A DNA stretch of 42,163 nt from an uncultured bacterium (GCA_903888625.1 CAISUD010000045.1:1-42163), one strand, 5' to 3'; shown: positions 26,578 to 36,626, numbered from the stretch's first letter. Notes: generated by a model from the sequence alone, not told the origin. Made by a program: numbers and translations.

Positions 26578-29500
26578 ATGAAAACATTAAACACAACTGA
26601 TTTTGATTACATTACACTGAAGCTGGCTTCACCTGAACAAGTCAAGGAATGGTCTTATGGGGAAGTTACTAAGCCAGAAACTATCAACTATCGTACAGGC
26701 CGATCTGAACGCGGAGGTCTTTTTGACGAGAAAATTTTCGGTCCAGAAAAAGATTACGAATGTTACTGTGGAAAATATCGTAGAATTCGTTATAAAGATA
26801 TTATCTGCGAAAAATGTGGAGTTGAAGTTACTAGATCTATTGTTCGTCGAGAAAGAATGGGGCATATTGAGCTTTCTACTCCAGTTGCCCATATTTGGTT
26901 TTTGCGAGGGGTGCCTTCTCGAATGAGTATTCTTCTTAATATTCCTGTTTCTGATCTAGAAAAAGTTATTTATTTTGCTGGCTATATCATCACTAAAGTT
27001 TATGAAGATGAAAAAGAAAAAATTCTTGAAAATCTAAATAAAGAATATAAAGCAAAATTAAAAAATTCAGCCGATGATGAAACCCGTGAAAAATTAAAAG
27101 ATTTATTTTCTAGTACTAAAAAAGAGATTGGAGAAATTTATGAAGGAAAGGTTTTGAATGAAATTTCTTTCCATCATTTTTCTTTAAAATACGGTATTTG
27201 TTTTGAAGCCAATATTGGTGCCGAAGCGATTTATTCTATTTTCAAAAATCTTGATTTAAACAAGCTTAAAAAACATACGGAAACTATGCTTGAAAAAGCT
27301 AGTACGATTGAAAAAGAAAAATTACAAAAAAGACTTTCTTTGATTCGAGCGATGACTTATGCGAACGTTAGGCCTGAATGGATGTTTTTGACCAATATTC
27401 CAGTTATTCCACCAGTTCTTCGTCCGATGGTAGCCTTGGATGGTGGCCGACATGCAACCAGCGATTTAAACGATTTGTATCGTCGAGTTATCAACCGAAA
27501 TAATCGTTTGAAAAAATTGAAAGAAATAAATGCTCCAGATGTAATCTTACGAAATGAAAAAAGAATTATTCAAGAAGCAGTGGATGCACTTATCGACAAC
27601 TCTATCGCCAAACAAAATGATAGTGTGGCAATGAGTCAATCTCAAAAAAGAGCCCTAAAATCTTTGTCAGATAATTTGAAATCAAAACAAGGATTGTTCC
27701 GTCAAAATTTGCTTGGTAAACGAGTAGATTATTCTGGTCGTTCAGTAATCGTTGTTGGTCCACAACTTAAGCTTAATCAATGTGGTTTGCCAAAACATAT
27801 GGCTCTTGAACTTTTCAAACCATTCGTAATTTCTAAAATTTTATTGGCTGAACTCGCTTTCAATATTCGTGGAGCCAATAAATTGATTGAAGAACGAACA
27901 CCAGAAGTTTGGGCAATGTTGGAAGAAGTTATTTTGGGTAAATATGTTTTGTTAAACCGAGCACCAACTTTGCACCGACTTGGAATTCAAGCTTTCAATC
28001 CAATTCTAATTGAAGGAAATGCTATTCAAGTGCATCCGCTTGTTTGTCAGGCTTTCAATGCTGACTTCGACGGAGACCAGATGGCTGTCTATGTGCCATT
28101 ATTAGAAGAGGCACAAAAAGAAGCCAGAGAATTAATGGCTTCAAATAAAAACTTATTAAAACCACAAAATGGTGATCCGATTGTGCATCCAAGTCGAGAT
28201 ATTGTGCTTGGAGCTTATTGGATGACGAAACATGTCGATGGAGAACTTGGTGAAGGGAAATATTTTTCTAGTCCCAACGTAGCTATCACCGCACATGACT
28301 ACGGAGTAATTTCTCTTCGAGCTAAAATAAAAGTTTTAGCTACTGATAATCATAAATATAGAAAATTTAATGAAGGTATTTTTGAAACTTCAGTCGGCAG
28401 ATTGCTTTTCAATAGTATTCTACCTGCTGATTTTTCTTATGTGAATGATGAAATGACTGTAAAAAGATTATCTAGTTTAGTTGATGAACTTATTTTGCAC
28501 TACGGAGTCGACCAAACTCCTCCAATCTTGGATAAGATAAAGAATTTTGGCTTCAAATATTCAACTGTTTCTGGTACTACTTGGGGGCTTGATAATATCA
28601 AAGTGCCAGTCGAAAAAGCAAAAATTATTGCTGATAGTAAAAAAGCTGAAGAACAAATTCTCGGTCAATGGAATGATGGACTTTTGTCAGAAGATGAAAA
28701 GTATCAAAAAATTATTGAAATCTGGACTCAAGCTAAAAAAGATTTGGAAAAAGTTTTGCCTCAAACTCTGGATAAAAATGGTTCAGCTTTTGACTTACTT
28801 ACCTCTGGTGCTAGAGGTTCGATGGGTCAATTAGTGCAGATGACTGGAATGAAGGGTCTTATTCAAAACAACCAAGGAAAAACTTTGGAATTTCCAATTA
28901 TTCCTTGTTATCACGAAGGACTTTCTCCAATTGAATATTTCGTTACTACTCACGGAGCTCGAAAAGGTGCTTCAGATACTGCCTTAAACACTGCTAAAGC
29001 TGGATATTTGACTCGTCGATTAGTAGATGTATCACAAGATGTAGTTATAACTGAAAAAGATTGTGGAACTAAAGAAGGTAAAATTGTTGGACGTGAAAAT
29101 ATCTCTGGGATTGAAATTCCACTTTCAAAAAATATTCGAGGTAGAATTTTAGCTAGTGATTTGAAAGATGAGGATGGAAAAGTAGTTTACAAAAAAGGAT
29201 TTTTAGTTACCAAAGAAGAAGCGTACACTATTGAAGGTATGGGCTTTAAAGAAGTCTTTGTCCGTTCTCCTTTAACTTGTCGAACTGTCCACGGAATTTG
29301 TCAGATGTGTTACGGACTCGACTTAGGTAGAAATCGTTTAGTTGATTTAGGGGAAGCTGTTGGTATTATCGCTGCTCAAGCTATCGGTGAACCTGGAACT
29401 CAGCTTACACTTCGAACTTTCCACGCTGGAGGTGTTGCTGGAACAGATATCACGACAGGTTTGCCCAGAGTTGAAGAAATTTTTGAAAGACGAATTCCAA

Positions 29501-30195
29501 AGAGTCCAGCAGTTGTCTCGGCTACTGATGGAGAAGTCTTTGAAATTAAAAATGGAGAAAAAGATAAACTTATCAAAGTTCTTTCTGATTCAAAAATGGA
29601 TGGCAAAAACAATGAAATGGAATATATTGTTTCTTTCCCTCGAACTCCAATTGTTAAAGTTGGAGAAAAAGTTAAAAAAGGTCAATTGCTTACCGATGGT
29701 TCAGCTGACATTGCAGAAATTTATAAACTGGGCAACAAAGAAATGGCTGAGGAATATATCATTCGAGAAATCAATAAAGTTTATGAACTTCAAAGTGCTT
29801 CGATTTCTAGAAAGCATACCGAAATAATTATTCGTCAGATGTTCTCTCGCCGACGGATTAAAGATGCCGGAGAAACAAATTTCTCTGTCGGAGATATTGT
29901 AGAAAATACAGCTTTAATTGAAGAGAATATGCGAGTTGCTAAAATCAAAGGGGATGATACTTCTCTACTAGCTAAAGGAGAAACTATTGTCCTTGGAATT
30001 ACCGAAGTCTCACTTCGAACCAAGAGTTGGCTTTCAGCTGCTTCTTTCCAAAATACCAATAGAGTGTTGATTGAAAATGCTGTTAAAGGGGGAGTAGATT
30101 ATCTAAGAGGTTTGAAAGAAAATGTTATTATTGGACGCCTTATTCCAGCTGGTACTGGTTTTCAAGGAGACAAAATTATTCCGGAGATAGAATAA
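26578..30195 (+). CDS. rpoC: DNA-directed RNA polymerase subunit beta'
   Basis: [60 protein letters not shown]. Confidence 0.98.
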
Positions 30196-30197
30196 GC

Positions 30198-30220
30198 ACT
30201 GAGAGGCCTTGCCTCTCAGT
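30198..30220. repeat. Perfect palindrome ACTGAGAGGC-CTT-GCCTCTCAGT between rpoC and the zinc-ribbon gene
   Basis: 10-bp stem, GGYNTTGCC core. Confidence 0.85.
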
Positions 30221-30229
30221 AAAAAAATT

Positions 30230-31981
30230 ATGGCAAACAGCGAACAAAAAGTATGCCAGAACTGCAAAAAAGACTTCATCATTGAGTCGGAGGATTTTAA
30301 CTTTTACGAAAAAATAAAAGTTCCACCTCCGACTTTTTGTCCGGAGTGTCGACAAATGCGTCGTATGAGTTTTCGTAATGAACGAATTTTATATAAAAGG
30401 AAATGCAGTAAAACCGGCAAAGATATTATTTCAATTTTTTCTGCTGATTCACCCTATAAGGTTTATGATCGTGTATATTGGGATAATGGTGATTTTGATG
30501 TGATGGATTCTGGTCGTGATTTTGATTTTTCTCGTCCATTTTTTAAGCAGTTTAAGGAATTTATGCTAGATGTTCCTTGGCCATCTCTTCGAGTGGGTAG
30601 TTCTGAAAACTGTGATTATAACAATGATATGAGCCGTTCAAAAAATTGTTATCTCTGTTCCAGAACTCATTTTTCTGAAAATATGCTTTATACTTATAGA
30701 GGAAATAAATCTAGAAGTTGTGTTGACTGTTATCAAGTTTTTAAGGGTTCTGATTTGCTTTACGAATGTGTTGAGTGTATATGTTGTAACAATAGTAGTT
30801 ATTTATATTTTTGCGAGAACTGTGCTAGTTCTAGCTTTCTTTATAATTGCAAAAATTGCCTCGATTGTTTTATGTCTAGCAACCTAAGAAATAAGCAATA
30901 TTTTTTTAAAAATCAACAATTATCAAAAGAAGAGTATGAAAAAAGAGTTTCGAGATTTTATTTAGGTTCATATATTATTAAGGGAAAAGCGATAAAAGAA
31001 TTTGAGGATTTAAATAAAAAAACAATAAGAAAATATTTAAATATTAATAATTCAGTAAATTCTACCGGAGACAGTATAATTAATTGTAAAAATAGTTTTT
31101 CTTGTTTTAATGTTAAATCTTGCGAAAATGTGCGATATCTTTGGGATGTGATGGATTACAAAGATTCAATGGACGCATATAGTGGAGGAAGAAATAGTGA
31201 ACTTATATATGAGTGTACCGCTACCGCTGCTGCTTATAATTGTTTTTTTAATCGAGGAGCCTCTGATTCAAGTGATATTTTTTATTCTATTTCTGTAAAA
31301 AATTCTAAAAATTTATTTGGATGTATTAATTTAGATAATAAAGAATATTGTATTTTTAATAAGCAATACACAAAAGAAGAGTACGAATATTTAACTGGAA
31401 AGATTATTGAGCATATGAGAAAAACAGGAGAGTGGGGAGAATTTTTCCCAATGGAATTGTCTATGTTCCCATATAACGATACAATTGCCCAGGAATATTA
31501 TCCAATGACAAAAGAAGAGGTAATAAAAAGAGGATTAATTTGGCAAGATCCGGACACAAAAAATTATAACATCACAATAAAAAGTGAAGATTTGCCAGAC
31601 GATATAGAAGACGTGAAAGAAGAAATTACTAAAGAAGTAATTGGTTGTGCGCATTATGGAAGTTGTAAACATGGTTGCTCTACTGCTTTTAGACTAATTC
31701 CGCGCGAAATTGAATTTTATAAAAGAATGAATTTACCATTGCCACACCTATGTCCTAATTGTAGACACTATGTAAGGTTTGGAAAACTAAATCCACTTAA
31801 ACTTTGGCATAGAGAATGTCAGTGTGCTGGAATAAAATCAGACAATAACAATTACCAAAATTTAGCTAGTCATTATTTGCATGGAGAAGAACATTGCCCA
31901 AATGAATTTGAAACCAGTTATGCACCAGACAGACCAGAAATAGTTTATTGTGAAAAATGTTATCAACAAGAAGTATATTAA
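30230..31981 (+). CDS. Large Cys-rich zinc-ribbon protein, CPR-type family of unknown function (copy 1; ORF track start 30209)
   Basis: CQNCKKDFIIESEDFNFYEKIKVPPPTFCPECRQMRRMSFRNE; many Cys dyads; C-terminal CPNCRHYVRF and CEKC. Confidence 0.85.
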   Translation: MANSEQKVCQNCKKDFIIESEDFNFYEKIKVPPPTFCPECRQMRRMSFRNERILYKRKCSKTGKDIISIFSADSPYKVYDRVYWDNGDFDVMDSGRDFDFSRPFFKQFKEFMLDVPWPSLRVGSSENCDYNNDMSRSKNCYLCSRTHFSENMLYTYRGNKSRSCVDCYQVFKGSDLLYECVECICCNNSSYLYFCENCASSSFLYNCKNCLDCFMSSNLRNKQYFFKNQQLSKEEYEKRVSRFYLGSYIIKGKAIKEFEDLNKKTIRKYLNINNSVNSTGDSIINCKNSFSCFNVKSCENVRYLWDVMDYKDSMDAYSGGRNSELIYECTATAAAYNCFFNRGASDSSDIFYSISVKNSKNLFGCINLDNKEYCIFNKQYTKEEYEYLTGKIIEHMRKTGEWGEFFPMELSMFPYNDTIAQEYYPMTKEEVIKRGLIWQDPDTKNYNITIKSEDLPDDIEDVKEEITKEVIGCAHYGSCKHGCSTAFRLIPREIEFYKRMNLPLPHLCPNCRHYVRFGKLNPLKLWHRECQCAGIKSDNNNYQNLASHYLHGEEHCPNEFETSYAPDRPEIVYCEKCYQQEVY

Positions 31982-31983
31982 AT

Positions 31984-33648
31984 ATGAAAAACGAAACAAA
32001 AAATTGTCAAAATTGTAAAAAAGATTTTGTTATCGAACAAGATGATTTTTCTTTTTATGAAAAGATGAAGGTACCAACACCTTTAAATTGTCCGACTTGT
32101 CGTCAACAACAACGGATGCTTTTTAGAAATTTTAAAACCTTATATAAACGACCCTCAAGTAAAACAGGGAAAATGATAATTTCTATGTATAATCCAGATG
32201 TTCCTTTCCCAGTTTGGGATATTGCTGAATGGTGGGCAGATGATTGGAGTGCAGAGGATTATGCATTAGATTTAGATTTGTCTTTACCTTTCGTTAAGCA
32301 ATTAGAAGAACTTTCCAATAAAATTCCACGTTTTTCTATTATGAATACAAAATGTGAAAATTCTGAGTATTCTAATATGGCATTCGCTTCAAAAAACTGT
32401 TATTTAATCTTTGGTTGTGTCGAAGATGAAAATTGTGATTATGGGCATGTAGTTTGGTATTCAAGAGATAGTGTAGATAATTTATATTTAAATAAATCTG
32501 AATTGTGTTATGAATGTATAGATTGCCTTAGTTGTAATAAATTATTTTATTCACAAGAGTGTGAGTCTTGTGCAGATTCTATAGGTCTTTATGATTGTCG
32601 AGATTGTATAAATTGTATTGGTTGTGTTGGTTTACGACACAAGTCTTTTTGTATTTTCAATCAACAAGTTACAAAAGAGGCTTACCAGGAATTTTTAGAA
32701 AAATATCCAATCAAAGATGAAGCAAGCAGAATTTATATTTTAAATAAAAGAGAAGTGCTAAGAAAAAAAATGCCAGCGCGTTCTGTTTTTGGTTCTCATA
32801 ATAATAATGTTTCTGGGGATCATATTTATAATGCTCATAATATACATGAATCTTTTGATGTTAAGGGTGGAGAAAATAGTAAATATGCTTATACTGCGGA
32901 TAAACCTATTGAATCTTACGATTTAACTTTTGCGGTAAAGGATGATTATTGTTATCAAGTTTTGACTTGTCTTAATAGTAATAATTTGATTTCTTCACAC
33001 CTTACACACGATTCTAGTTATGTTTATTATTCTCAATTCTGCTTTAATTTACAAAATTGTTTTGGTTGTTTAGGGTTACGAAATAAGGAATATTGTATTT
33101 TAAACAAAAAATATGCAAAAGAAGAATATGAAAAATTAGTTTCACAAATTATTGAAAATATGAAACAAAATGGTGATTGGGGAAATTTCTTTCCAATTTC
33201 GATGAGTCCATTTGCTTACAATGAATCAATTTCCAATGAATATATGCCACTTTCAAAAGATGAAGCACTACAACAAAATTTCAAATGGCGAGATAATATT
33301 CCGTATACAACAGGTCAGGAAAATTGCACTTATGATGAATTGCCAAAAAACCCTATAGAATATGAGGAGAAAACTCTTTTAGGGAAAATATTAAAATGTG
33401 AAGTATGTGATAAAAATTATCGTTTTATCGGGCGGGAAATAGTTTTTTATAAAAGAATGAATTTATCTTTGCCTTCCAAATGTTTCAATTGTCGTCATCA
33501 AGAAAGAATGAATATGCGAAATCCAAGAGTTCTTACGGAAACAAAATGTGCGTCGTGTGGTAATCTAACAGAAACAACTTATCCAAAAGAAAAACATAAT
33601 CAATATAAAATATATTGTGAAGATTGTTATAAACAAGAAATAAATTAA
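31984..33648 (+). CDS. Large Cys-rich zinc-ribbon protein, paralog of the upstream gene (copy 2; ORF track start 31957)
   Basis: CQNCKKDFVIEQDDFSFYEKMKVPTPLNCPTCRQQQRMLFRNF; collinear with copy 1. Confidence 0.85.
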   Translation: MKNETKNCQNCKKDFVIEQDDFSFYEKMKVPTPLNCPTCRQQQRMLFRNFKTLYKRPSSKTGKMIISMYNPDVPFPVWDIAEWWADDWSAEDYALDLDLSLPFVKQLEELSNKIPRFSIMNTKCENSEYSNMAFASKNCYLIFGCVEDENCDYGHVVWYSRDSVDNLYLNKSELCYECIDCLSCNKLFYSQECESCADSIGLYDCRDCINCIGCVGLRHKSFCIFNQQVTKEAYQEFLEKYPIKDEASRIYILNKREVLRKKMPARSVFGSHNNNVSGDHIYNAHNIHESFDVKGGENSKYAYTADKPIESYDLTFAVKDDYCYQVLTCLNSNNLISSHLTHDSSYVYYSQFCFNLQNCFGCLGLRNKEYCILNKKYAKEEYEKLVSQIIENMKQNGDWGNFFPISMSPFAYNESISNEYMPLSKDEALQQNFKWRDNIPYTTGQENCTYDELPKNPIEYEEKTLLGKILKCEVCDKNYRFIGREIVFYKRMNLSLPSKCFNCRHQERMNMRNPRVLTETKCASCGNLTETTYPKEKHNQYKIYCEDCYKQEIN

Positions 33649-33650
33649 TT

Positions 33651-35396
33651 ATGAATTCACCGGTACAAAAAATTAAAGAACGATTATCTATTGAAGAAGT
33701 AGTTTCTTCTTATTTGAAATTGGAAAAAGTTGGTTCGAGTTTAAAGGCTCGGTGTCCTTTTCACAATGAAAAAACCGCTTCATTTTTTATTTCAAATGAT
33801 AGAGGCAGTTATTATTGTTTTGGCTGTGGTGCCAAAGGTGATATTTTTTCTTTTGTGGAAGAATTTGAGGGCTTGGATTTTAAAGGCGCCTTGAAGTTGT
33901 TGGCAGAACGAGTCGGAGTCGAACTCGAAAATTATAATCCAGAAAACGAAAGTGAGAAAGAAAAATTGTATCGTGCGATGGAAGAGTCCACAAAGTTTTT
34001 TGAAAATAATTTAGTAACAAATATTGACGTACTTAAATATTTAAAAGATAGAGGCCTAGAAGATAAAACAATTAAAAATTTTAGAATTGGTTTTGCCAAG
34101 GCCGATTGGCGAGAGCTTTATAATTATTTGAAAACTAAAAACTTTACCGATCATGAAATAGAATTGGCTGGGCTAGCTAAAAAACCAGATGATAAAAGCA
34201 AGGCCATGTATGATCGTTTCCGCGGACGAATAATGTTTCCAATTTCAGATTCTAGTGGGCGAGTGATAGCTTTTTCAGGAAGAATTTTTGAAGACCCTTC
34301 GACAGGCTCAGGGCAAGTGAAAGACCAGGCCAAATATTTAAATAGTCCAGAAACACCAATTTTTAGTAAAAGTGCAGTTTTGTATGGCCTTGATAAAGCG
34401 AAAGACTCTATTCGTAAAAATAATTTTTCTATATTAGTGGAAGGGCAATTTGATTTAATACTGTCACATCAAGCTGGATTTCGAAATACGGTGGCTACTT
34501 CTGGCACGGCACTATCAGATTCAACTATTTCTAAAGAGAATGTTGTTTCCAATTTAGGTTTGATTCGTAGACTTTCTGGCAATATTGTACTTGCTTTTGA
34601 TGCAGATCGTGCAGGTTATAATGCAATTAATCGAGCAAGTAAGATTGCTTTATCCTTTGGCATGGATGTGAAAGTGGCAGAAATAGCTGAGGGGATAGAT
34701 CCAGCAGATCTGATCTCAAAGAATGGCAAAGAAGCTTGGCATGAAGCTATTAAAAATTCAAAACACATTATAGAATTTCTTTTAAATAAAACTTTGAAAG
34801 ATTTTGCCAATGATACTCGTAAAGCTGGCAGAGAAATTAAAGACAAAATATTACCCTATGTGAGTTCGCTTGAGAGCTCGATTGAAAAAGCTCATTTTAT
34901 AAAAATTATTAGCAATAAATCTGGAATTTTAGAAAATGCACTTCTGGAAGATTTGAAAAAAGTTGAAGTTTTGGAAAAAAATGAAAAAAAAGATATAGAG
35001 ATTGCCAAAGTTAATGTCGAGAAAAAATTAAGAAAAGATCCGATTGAACGTAGATTGCTTGGGATTGCCTTTTGGCAAGAAGGGAAAAAGAATCAAAAGA
35101 TAGACCCGCTGGTAATTTTTGAAAAGTTAAAAAAAGTTAAAGATTTTTATGAACAAGTAAAAGACGATTTAATCTATGAAGCCGAAGAGTTTTACTCTAA
35201 TGATGAAAATTTAGAACGAGATGTCAAAGAAATGTTATTTAATCTCGAAGAAGAATATTTAAATGAAGAATTAATAAAGTATATGTTAGAGTTAGAGAGG
35301 TATAAAGGGCAGAGCCAAGAGATAGAAATTTTGAAAAAGATAAATGAAATTAATAAGCAAAAAGAAAATATTAAAAATAGTCGTCAAAATAAATAA
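33651..35396 (+). CDS. dnaG: DNA primase
   Basis: CPFHNEKTASFFISNDRGSYYCFGCGAKGDIFSFV zinc finger; TOPRIM LVEGQFDLILSHQAG, AFDADRAG. Confidence 0.96.
   Translation: MNSPVQKIKERLSIEEVVSSYLKLEKVGSSLKARCPFHNEKTASFFISNDRGSYYCFGCGAKGDIFSFVEEFEGLDFKGALKLLAERVGVELENYNPENESEKEKLYRAMEESTKFFENNLVTNIDVLKYLKDRGLEDKTIKNFRIGFAKADWRELYNYLKTKNFTDHEIELAGLAKKPDDKSKAMYDRFRGRIMFPISDSSGRVIAFSGRIFEDPSTGSGQVKDQAKYLNSPETPIFSKSAVLYGLDKAKDSIRKNNFSILVEGQFDLILSHQAGFRNTVATSGTALSDSTISKENVVSNLGLIRRLSGNIVLAFDADRAGYNAINRASKIALSFGMDVKVAEIAEGIDPADLISKNGKEAWHEAIKNSKHIIEFLLNKTLKDFANDTRKAGREIKDKILPYVSSLESSIEKAHFIKIISNKSGILENALLEDLKKVEVLEKNEKKDIEIAKVNVEKKLRKDPIERRLLGIAFWQEGKKNQKIDPLVIFEKLKKVKDFYEQVKDDLIYEAEEFYSNDENLERDVKEMLFNLEEEYLNEELIKYMLELERYKGQSQEIEILKKINEINKQKENIKNSRQNK
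34295..34317. repeat. CCCTTCGACAGGCTCAGGGCAAG repeat inside dnaG
   Basis: Encodes PSTGSGQ between IFED and VKDQAKYLNSPETPIF; same type as in trmD. Confidence 0.82.
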
Positions 35397-35405
35397 ACTA
35401 ATAAT

Positions 35406-36626
35406 ATGAAAAAAATAAAGAAAACAAAAAAAATAATAAAAGCCAAAAAGAAAGTAAAAAAAGTTGTTAGAAAAATAGCGACTAAGAAAACAAAAAAGGC
35501 TGTTAAAAAGATTGTAAATGTCAAAAAGTCGCCTATAAAAAAACTTTCTATTACTGAAAAAAAAGTAGAAGTTTTATCGAAACTTTCTGATGAACTGGTA
35601 GAAAAAGGGAGAAAGAGAGGCTTTATCACTTATGATGAAATTTTAAAAACTTTTCCAGATATCGAAAACAATATTTTATTTTTGGACGAACTTTATGAAA
35701 AATTTGCAGTGGCTGGAATTGATGTTTTGGAAGGAGGGAATTTGCTTAATTTAGATAATGATTTAACAGATAAAGATTTAAATAAATCTCCAATTCATGA
35801 TTCTATTCAGATGTATTTGAAGGAAATAGGCCAGTATCCACTTATTTATGCGGCCGATGAAAAAGATTTAGCTAAAAGAATCGAGCAAGGAGATGAAGAA
35901 GCAAAGAACTTGTTGGCTCGAGCCAATTTGCGTTTAGTGGTTTCTATTGCTAAAAAATATGTTGGAAGAAGTGCTGATTTAACTTTACTTGATTTAATTC
36001 AAGAAGGGAATTTGGGTTTATTTAAAGCTGTTGAAAAATTTGATTGGACGAAGGGTTATAAATTTTCTACTTATGCTACTTGGTGGATTCGTCAATCTAT
36101 CACTCGAGCATTAGCCGATCAATCGCGTACGATTCGTATTCCGGTGCATATGGTGGAGACAATTTCGAAATATAAACAAGCTTACAGAAGACTTTCTCAA
36201 GATTTGGGCCGAGAGCCGTTAGCTGAAGAAATTGCTACGGAAATGGGAGTGGAGGTAGAAAAAATTCATATTATTGAAAATATTTCTCAGGAAACAATTT
36301 CTCTTGAACAACCAGTTGGAGATGATGACGACAAATCTACTCTCGAGAATTTTATTCCCGATGATAAAATTTTGCGTCCAGATCAAGAGTCTTCTAGACG
36401 AATTTTATCAGATCAAATCAGAGAAGTGCTCGGTGAACTTAATCCAAAAGAAAGAAAAATTTTAGAAATGCGTTATGGACTGGTAGACGGCATTCAACAT
36501 ACTCTAGAGAGAGTAGGGGAAGAATTCGGAGTCACTCGAGAACGTATTCGCCAGATTGAAGCCAAAGTTCACGACAAACTCCGCCAGCACGAAAAAATCG
36601 CAAGACTAAAGAATTATTTTGATTAA
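35406..36626 (+). CDS. rpoD: RNA polymerase primary sigma factor with Lys-rich N-terminal tail
   Basis: [75 protein letters not shown]. Confidence 0.96.

Follow-up and report, generated by a model that had tools for sequence, protein, structure and literature searches.

Patescibacteria encode homologues of VirD4, of which 5,713 have been counted in 2,918 genomes, 148 of them near virB4, and exaptation of these homologues for other functions has been left open (PMC12102498). VirD4 and TrwB are ATPases of the coupling-protein class (T4CP) that serves type IV secretion; HerA translocases are known from HerA–NurA, SIR2–HerA and HerA–DUF4297. As a precedent for zinc-binding adaptors on motors of the VirD4 type, the ATPase DotL of the Legionella coupling complex carries DotN, a metal-binding adaptor. 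Here we describe a family of Cys-rich proteins whose recurrent neighbour across the phylum Patescibacteria is a VirD4/TrwB-like ATPase, rather than the RNA polymerase or primase genes beside which we encountered it.

The window, meaning the whole stretch of DNA analysed (G000:C45, 42,163 bases), belongs to a Nomurabacteria-type genome of 0.90 Mb that is 97% complete. On one strand it carries rpoC, ORF A, ORF B, dnaG and a sigma-70 gene, in that order (Table 1). ORF calls and full-length homology bore out the original prediction of two collinear paralogs between rpoC and dnaG; they measure about 555–590 aa, and the word "giant" used for them there is generous at about 580 aa. ORF A and ORF B are homologous end to end at 40% identity, and this full-length similarity, together with 15 further stretches of the same genome that match the family (E 5e-143 to 4e-40), places their homology far beyond chance. 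Depending on the start codon, ORF B overlaps the end of ORF A (start at 31957) or begins 2 bp downstream of it (31984); start codons are uncertain throughout, and ORFs were called by simple rules on draft contigs, with one genome per species.

Table 1. Features of the rpoC–dnaG region in window coordinates; zinc-binding modules and solenoids are predicted.
Feature	Position	Strand	Remarks
rpoC, left flank	26578..30195	+	context only
ORF A, predicted double zinc-finger / double beta-solenoid protein	30230..31981	+	583 aa (ATG); 590 aa from TTG 30209
ORF A N-terminal zinc ribbon + basic stretch	30230..30409	+	C9, C12, C37, C40 invariant; zf_Tbcl-like
ORF A Cys-rich solenoid block 1	30587..30925	+	residues ~120-232; pLDDT 60-65; CxxCFxxxxLRNKxYxxxNxxxSKEEY-type cap ends block
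ORF A solenoid block 2	31067..31372	+	residues ~280-381; pLDDT ~95; homologous to block 1; cap FGCxxLxNKxYCIxNKQYTKEEY
ORF A C-terminal double zinc finger	31637..31978	+	ribbon homologous to N-terminal ribbon, plus CxxC-type finger
ORF B, paralog of ORF A	31984..33648	+	554 aa; 563 aa from ATG 31957
ORF B N-terminal zinc ribbon	31984..32163	+	zf_Tbcl match E 2.3e-4, below cut-off
ORF B C-terminal double zinc finger	33397..33645	+	33526-33636 vs PF23477 / TIGR04272, below cut-off
dnaG, right flank	33651..35396	+	context only
sigma-70 gene	35406-36626	+	

The N-terminal Cys motif, the middle of repeated Cys dyads and the C-terminal Cys motif that had been read from the sequence were all present. 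An AlphaFold model of ORF A (mean pLDDT 88, pTM 0.89), based like our conservation values on a 98-sequence alignment, arranges the protein as a zinc ribbon, a first solenoid, helices, a second solenoid, a linker and C-terminal fingers, and supports the suggested solenoid in the middle, in the form of a beta-solenoid, with the higher pLDDT in block 2. Profile comparison matched the N-terminal to the C-terminal ribbon (99.1% probability, E 4e-19) and solenoid 1 to solenoid 2 (99.95%, E 8e-38). Because ribbons and solenoids are thus internally repeated, the protein reads from end to end as one finger unit, two solenoids and a second finger unit. Each solenoid is closed by a CFGCxxLRNKxYCIxNKQYxKEEY-type cap, and the extreme C-terminus is a second finger type (PF23477/TIGR04272, CxxC-x17-CxxC), whose spacing also follows the first ribbon, as C59xxC62-x17-C80xxC83, in about half of the family. 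Conservation is concentrated in the ribbons, in the solenoid cap and in the final 23 residues (entropy 0.8–1.5 bits per position), and the solenoid faces vary between subtypes (2.3–2.8 bits). Twelve cysteines (C9, C12, C37, C40, C473, C483, C508, C511, C530, C556, C574 and C577) are kept in 97–100% of the 98 sequences, and YCEKCYQQEVY at the end of ORF A is among the best-conserved stretches of the family. Family proteins contain a median of 35 Cys and no evident transmembrane helix. The Cys pairs and weak zf_Tbcl/PF23477 matches agree with the earlier reading of these paralogs as zinc-finger proteins, with zinc binding predicted from the Cys pattern and the predicted fold.

Searches of known families left most of the protein unmatched. 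No Pfam, NCBIfam, PHROGs or PADLOC family covers the whole protein or its solenoids, a search of PDB sequences returned one insignificant match, and Foldseek found no match to the ORF A fold in PDB or BFVD at E<=1e-3. The closest named families are the Cys-pair modules PF23477 (zf_Tbcl_2/TIGR04272) and PF13451 (zf_Tbcl), called "probable" zinc fingers by Pfam, which weakly resemble the terminal modules of the family and cover less than 15% of its proteins. The window proteins scored 17.8–21.5 bits against these two models (Pfam gathering cut-offs 24 and 27), some congener copies exceeded the PF23477 cut-off, and at E<=1e-3 PF23477 matched 8 of 40 family members and PF13451 matched 5. For the solenoids, the best matches were left-handed beta-helix proteins (gamma-carbonic anhydrase, LpxD and GlmU), which on non-significant Foldseek values (E >= 0.03) and TM-scores of about 0.1–0.2 are not homologous. 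We found no description of the family in the open-access literature, and a search for the database label "CaiB/BaiF family protein" on such CPR genes did not find it. Sequence, profile and fold searches support the original prediction that the family is frequent in CPR genomes and has no assigned function.

In the source genome we detected 17 matching stretches, corresponding to 16 genes (one of them split in two) at 13 places on ten contigs. These copies make up about 3% of its DNA, within a genus range of about 0.2–5%. Among the 13 other congeners, ten had 7–28 matches, G010 had a single full copy, G009 only a remnant and G152 none, and the family was absent from all eight genomes sampled from other taxonomic families of the same order. 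The closest public sequences came from Nomurabacteria, Staskawicz-, Lipton-, Jorgensen-, Giovannoni-, Sungi-, Kaiser- and Kerfeldbacteria and other Patescibacteria; of the named records in the top 79 loci, nearly all belong to Patescibacteria lineages, and we found the family only in this phylum. One record (L044), titled Burkholderiales, is probably mis-binned; it has neighbour genes and a 79% identical copy in common with a genome from Nomurabacteria.

The copies within a genome are not duplicates of one another. Among 113 full-length copies from 12 genomes, none of the 685 within-genome pairs exceeded 60% identity, compared with 81 of 5,643 between-genome pairs, and the nearest relative sat in another genome for 101 of the 113. 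The tree mixes members from distant classes, with ORF A grouping with L205 (support 1.0) and ORF B with L074 and L064 (1.0) and L199 (0.96). Some subtypes stay in place, such as the copy between rluA and rplS (six or seven congeners) and that between murE and murD, and others move; arrays and truncated or frame-broken copies are frequent. Orthologue pairs gave dN/dS of 0.05–0.14, solenoids included, indicating purifying selection. The family is thus an old, constrained, non-redundant and relocating set of genes, on which strongly reduced genomes still spend DNA. At this dN/dS, a hypervariable or antigenic repertoire was not supported within subtypes. Two scans of viral contigs revealed no homologue of the family, and we rejected a viral origin.

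Within the window's genus, many copies lie between or around the genes of one cluster, rpoA–rplQ–rplM–rpsI–grpE–dnaK–ATPase1–ATPase2–dnaJ, in which the two ATPases are paralogs. In the source genome this cluster is on another contig (G000:C39), in the order dnaK, family gene, ATPase1, family gene, ATPase2, dnaJ. Both ATPases are VirD4/TrwB/HerA-like by Pfam, and phmmer matched ATPase1 and a distant array ATPase to TrwB (2e-5). A predicted model of ATPase2 (pLDDT 76, pTM 0.79) had TrwB (E 2e-9) and the Legionella coupling complex (8e-9) as its top Foldseek matches, followed by HerA (9e-8); its matches to TrwB-type ATPases span E 2e-9 to 1e-7, at probability 1.0 and TM of about 0.5. ATPase1 carries the PF23477 finger (E 2.6e-11), the type found at the C-terminus of the family proteins, in 13 of 13 genus members tested; a similar finger occurs in the ATPase of the non-carrier G225, and the distant array-linked ATPases do not have it. 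The ATPases contain no evident transmembrane or hydrophobic segment (maximum 19-residue KD about 1.1), and we saw no channel gene consistently near the ATPase or family loci.

This association extends well beyond the genus. ATPases also adjoin family genes at other Paceibacteria loci, and carriers belonging to other classes have between one and five family genes next to an ATPase of about 745 aa, located after the array in 8 of 12 distant loci and, in the other four, before it or opposed to it. Six loci also have a TrmB-type regulator, in reverse orientation and inside or next to the array; five of these regulators were confirmed by Pfam. The 13 distant carriers each encode a near full-length ATPase homologue, which all 19 distant non-carriers lack (Fisher 3e-9, for genomes that are not independent samples and a threshold of >= 646 bits set after seeing the data, at the weakest carrier). 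In 12 of these 13 carriers, no more than 5 kb separates the ATPase from a family gene, where random placement would give 1.8 (P about 6e-11). The contrast holds among closer relatives: within f79 the ATPase was found in 4/4 carriers and 0/4 non-carriers, and within f68 in 2/2 carriers and not in the one non-carrier, which is congeneric with a carrier. G172, whose only trace of the family is a broken fragment, scored 600 bits. Adjacency is far from universal, as the next non-family gene is not an ATPase for 237 of 320 copies, including the window pair, and two congeners (G009, with its remnant, and G152) keep the ATPase without an intact family gene. We also asked about clade structure: ATPase-flanked copies do not form one special clade (66 label changes against a mean of 73.5 and a minimum of 64 in 200 shuffles). 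Overall, the family and the ATPase are likely functional partners.

We tentatively favour, at a little short of an even chance, the explanation that the family proteins are exchangeable substrates or adaptors of this orphan VirD4/TrwB/HerA-like motor. This reading joins a handle that is constant at both ends, combining a zinc ribbon with a CxxC-type treble-clef finger, to the subtype-specific double beta-solenoid between them and to co-inheritance with a coupling-type motor. The zinc-finger handle would dock on a hexameric ATPase, and the solenoid would be either the cargo itself or a grip for a particular client. For the window pair, the motor would be the one encoded elsewhere in the genome, beside dnaK–dnaJ. 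The family genes are gained, lost and relocated into housekeeping operons, where they may be co-transcribed with their neighbours. Architecture, non-redundancy, relocation, purifying selection, linkage and co-inheritance are computed results, and we infer from them the docking, the cargo or adaptor role and what is moved. A classical secretion role is disfavoured because the ATPases have no membrane anchor and no linked channel. It is possible, if unlikely, that Patescibacteria have a new system built on a soluble coupling-type ATPase and a large repertoire of double-zinc-finger/double-solenoid proteins that serve it. This repertoire, non-redundant and horizontally exchanged, would be delivered to, or take cargo from, the host cells that these reduced symbionts rely on. 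That the genes are non-redundant, selected, moving and co-inherited with an ATPase suggests a function relevant to the symbiont lifestyle.

The main rival keeps the motor and changes its task: a HerA-like DNA translocase would handle nucleic acids or act in defence, with the family proteins as nucleic-acid-binding specificity or sensor subunits made of basic zinc ribbons and a variable solenoid, forming a defence-like repertoire that is patchy and relocates. The ATPase2 fold also resembles HerA–NurA and SIR2–HerA structures, the ATPase weakly matches the PADLOC mad8/HerA models and has no transmembrane segment, and the family's N-terminal ribbon is basic, with a median net charge of +4 across 70 residues, all of which is consistent with this idea, as are the patchy presence and high copy number of the genes. 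However, over its full length the protein is slightly acidic (median −3), the family proteins have no PADLOC match at E<=0.1, and no nuclease or effector domain shows consistent linkage. Selection inside subtypes is purifying rather than diversifying, and scans of the viral contig collection found no homologue, so we regard this role as unlikely.

Family proteins could instead be chaperone or metal-homeostasis accessories, Cys-rich stores of zinc or another metal or redox-sensitive holdases tied to GrpE/DnaK/DnaJ and CutA1. Their high Cys content fits, 67 of the 136 copies in congeners share a stretch with grpE, dnaK, dnaJ or ATPase genes, the only G010 copy follows grpE, and CutA1 (PF03091) flanks 13 copies in 7 loci. 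Yet the arrays of carriers in other classes keep the ATPase beside them and not the chaperones, so the chaperone linkage may just reflect where the ATPase lies in this genus, and we demoted the idea of a chaperone partner that the grpE–dnaK–dnaJ nest had raised. A metal store would also have no need of 16 or more non-redundant subtypes. We regard this role as unlikely, and somewhat less probable than one in nucleic-acid handling.

Copies at different places in close relatives, common arrays and truncated copies, and a range of 0 to 28 matches per congener could also point to selfish mobile genes, of a transposon or homing kind, that move through operons and bring the cell no benefit. We consider this very unlikely: such spread would leave near-identical copies within genomes, of which there are none, whereas the genes are under purifying selection, are syntenic at some sites such as that between rluA and rplS, and are co-inherited with the ATPase. 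The family has no recombinase or nuclease match and no terminal inverted repeats surround the window pair, and a transposon or homing element was rejected on the lack of near-identical copies and inverted repeats and on dN/dS.

The position in the window had suggested a link to transcription or replication. Synteny with rpoC and dnaG is not conserved: the two genes lie about 20–95 bp apart with nothing between them in at least six congeners (G001, G003, G004, G007, G010 and G012), other DNA separates them in three (G005, G006 and G008), and G002 has a broken family remnant directly before dnaG. Intact members do occur at this site in L096, between rpoC and dnaG, and in L101, before dnaG. They belong to other subtypes, however, the L096 member being closest to a copy on G000:C15 (60%) and the second L101 member to one on G000:C60 (61%). 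Three relatives come closest to ORF A (70%, 70% and 66%): one in an array next to purQ, one in a pair that neighbours transporter genes, and one following scpB. For both ORFs the nearest orthologues adjoin unrelated genes, and other copies adjoin rplS, murD, murG, purQ, scpB, grpE and others. One site thus takes different subtypes and one subtype takes different sites, and the rpoC–dnaG position is incidental, one of the landing sites. The family lies elsewhere in most genomes, with 16 copies at 13 places in this one and rpoC and dnaG adjacent without them in most congeners. This is the outcome that the original prediction had named as its refutation, and a transcription or replication factor linked to RNA polymerase or primase is hardly credible, even counting the members and the remnant found at the site.

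If the substrate or adaptor reading is true, the family is a candidate substrate set for the orphan VirD4-like ATPases of the phylum. It offers these ATPases (PMC12102498) a concrete partner, and turns a hypothetical protein into a testable two-component hypothesis. Compared with known systems, the partner ATPase has the fold and sequence signature of the T4CPs of type IV secretion; it differs from canonical VirD4, which is membrane-anchored, in having no evident transmembrane anchor, and from T4CPs in its linkage to Cys-rich genes and, in ATPase1, a C-terminal zinc finger. Like the HerA translocases it is a soluble ATPase with a significant fold match, but HerA ranks below TrwB in that match and we saw no linked NurA, SIR2 or DUF4297 gene. 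The motor is of a known kind, and the family and its pairing with that motor are new.

Genes of the Cys-rich double zinc-finger/double beta-solenoid family end in a segment encoding a conserved tail, CYQQEVY-stop, within which an ATG, GTG or TTG lies in another frame (for example, at window positions 31957-31981). The next gene uses the frame of this triplet in 82 of 182 close pairs, against 61 expected (P 0.001), and this excess raises the possibility of translational coupling between a family gene and its successor, or of starts being called within the tail (MLSARS...). A degraded family remnant directly 5' of dnaG in genome G002 (locus L115, G002:C5), where the tail reads CEKYYQQEVY, shows that a member was lost there at the same site upstream of dnaG that the pair occupies in the window. 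The rpoC-dnaG gap of genome G007 carries, without any family gene, TAAAAAATT and a hairpin similar to that preceding ORF A (see table).

Features in the window and at locus L178
Feature	Position	Context
Perfect hairpin CTGAGAGGC-CTT-GCCTCTCAG, then TAAAAAAATT	window 30196-30230	between rpoC and ORF A
Palindrome-like insert TTCGACAGGCTCAGG	window 34290-34325	within dnaG
Gene with PaaX_M (Cas2-like) domain	L178:7746-8288	reverse-oriented

Thirteen family copies, at seven loci from several lineages (L072, L073, L079, L100, L052, L058 and L150), are flanked by a CutA1-like gene (PF03091 match at L100, E 2.7e-18), possibly a second, metal-related partner of the family. In many congeners, a reverse-oriented PaaX_M gene separates dnaK from the grpE-side family copies. 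Many genomes without the full family (G046, G142, G110, G216 and others) encode stand-alone proteins of ~90-150 aa consisting only of the end-type finger unit, which may be ancestors or remnants of the family. On a contig titled Burkholderiales (JAMPXW010000002.1), family genes occur together with DnaJ and the VirD4/TrwB/HerA-like ATPase2, and one of these family genes shares 79% identity with a copy in the Nomurabacteria-type genome G003; this record is probably mis-binned or mislabelled.

The insert in the window's dnaG is translated in frame as DPSTGSGQV; palindrome-like and in-frame, it resembles REP-like coding repeats.
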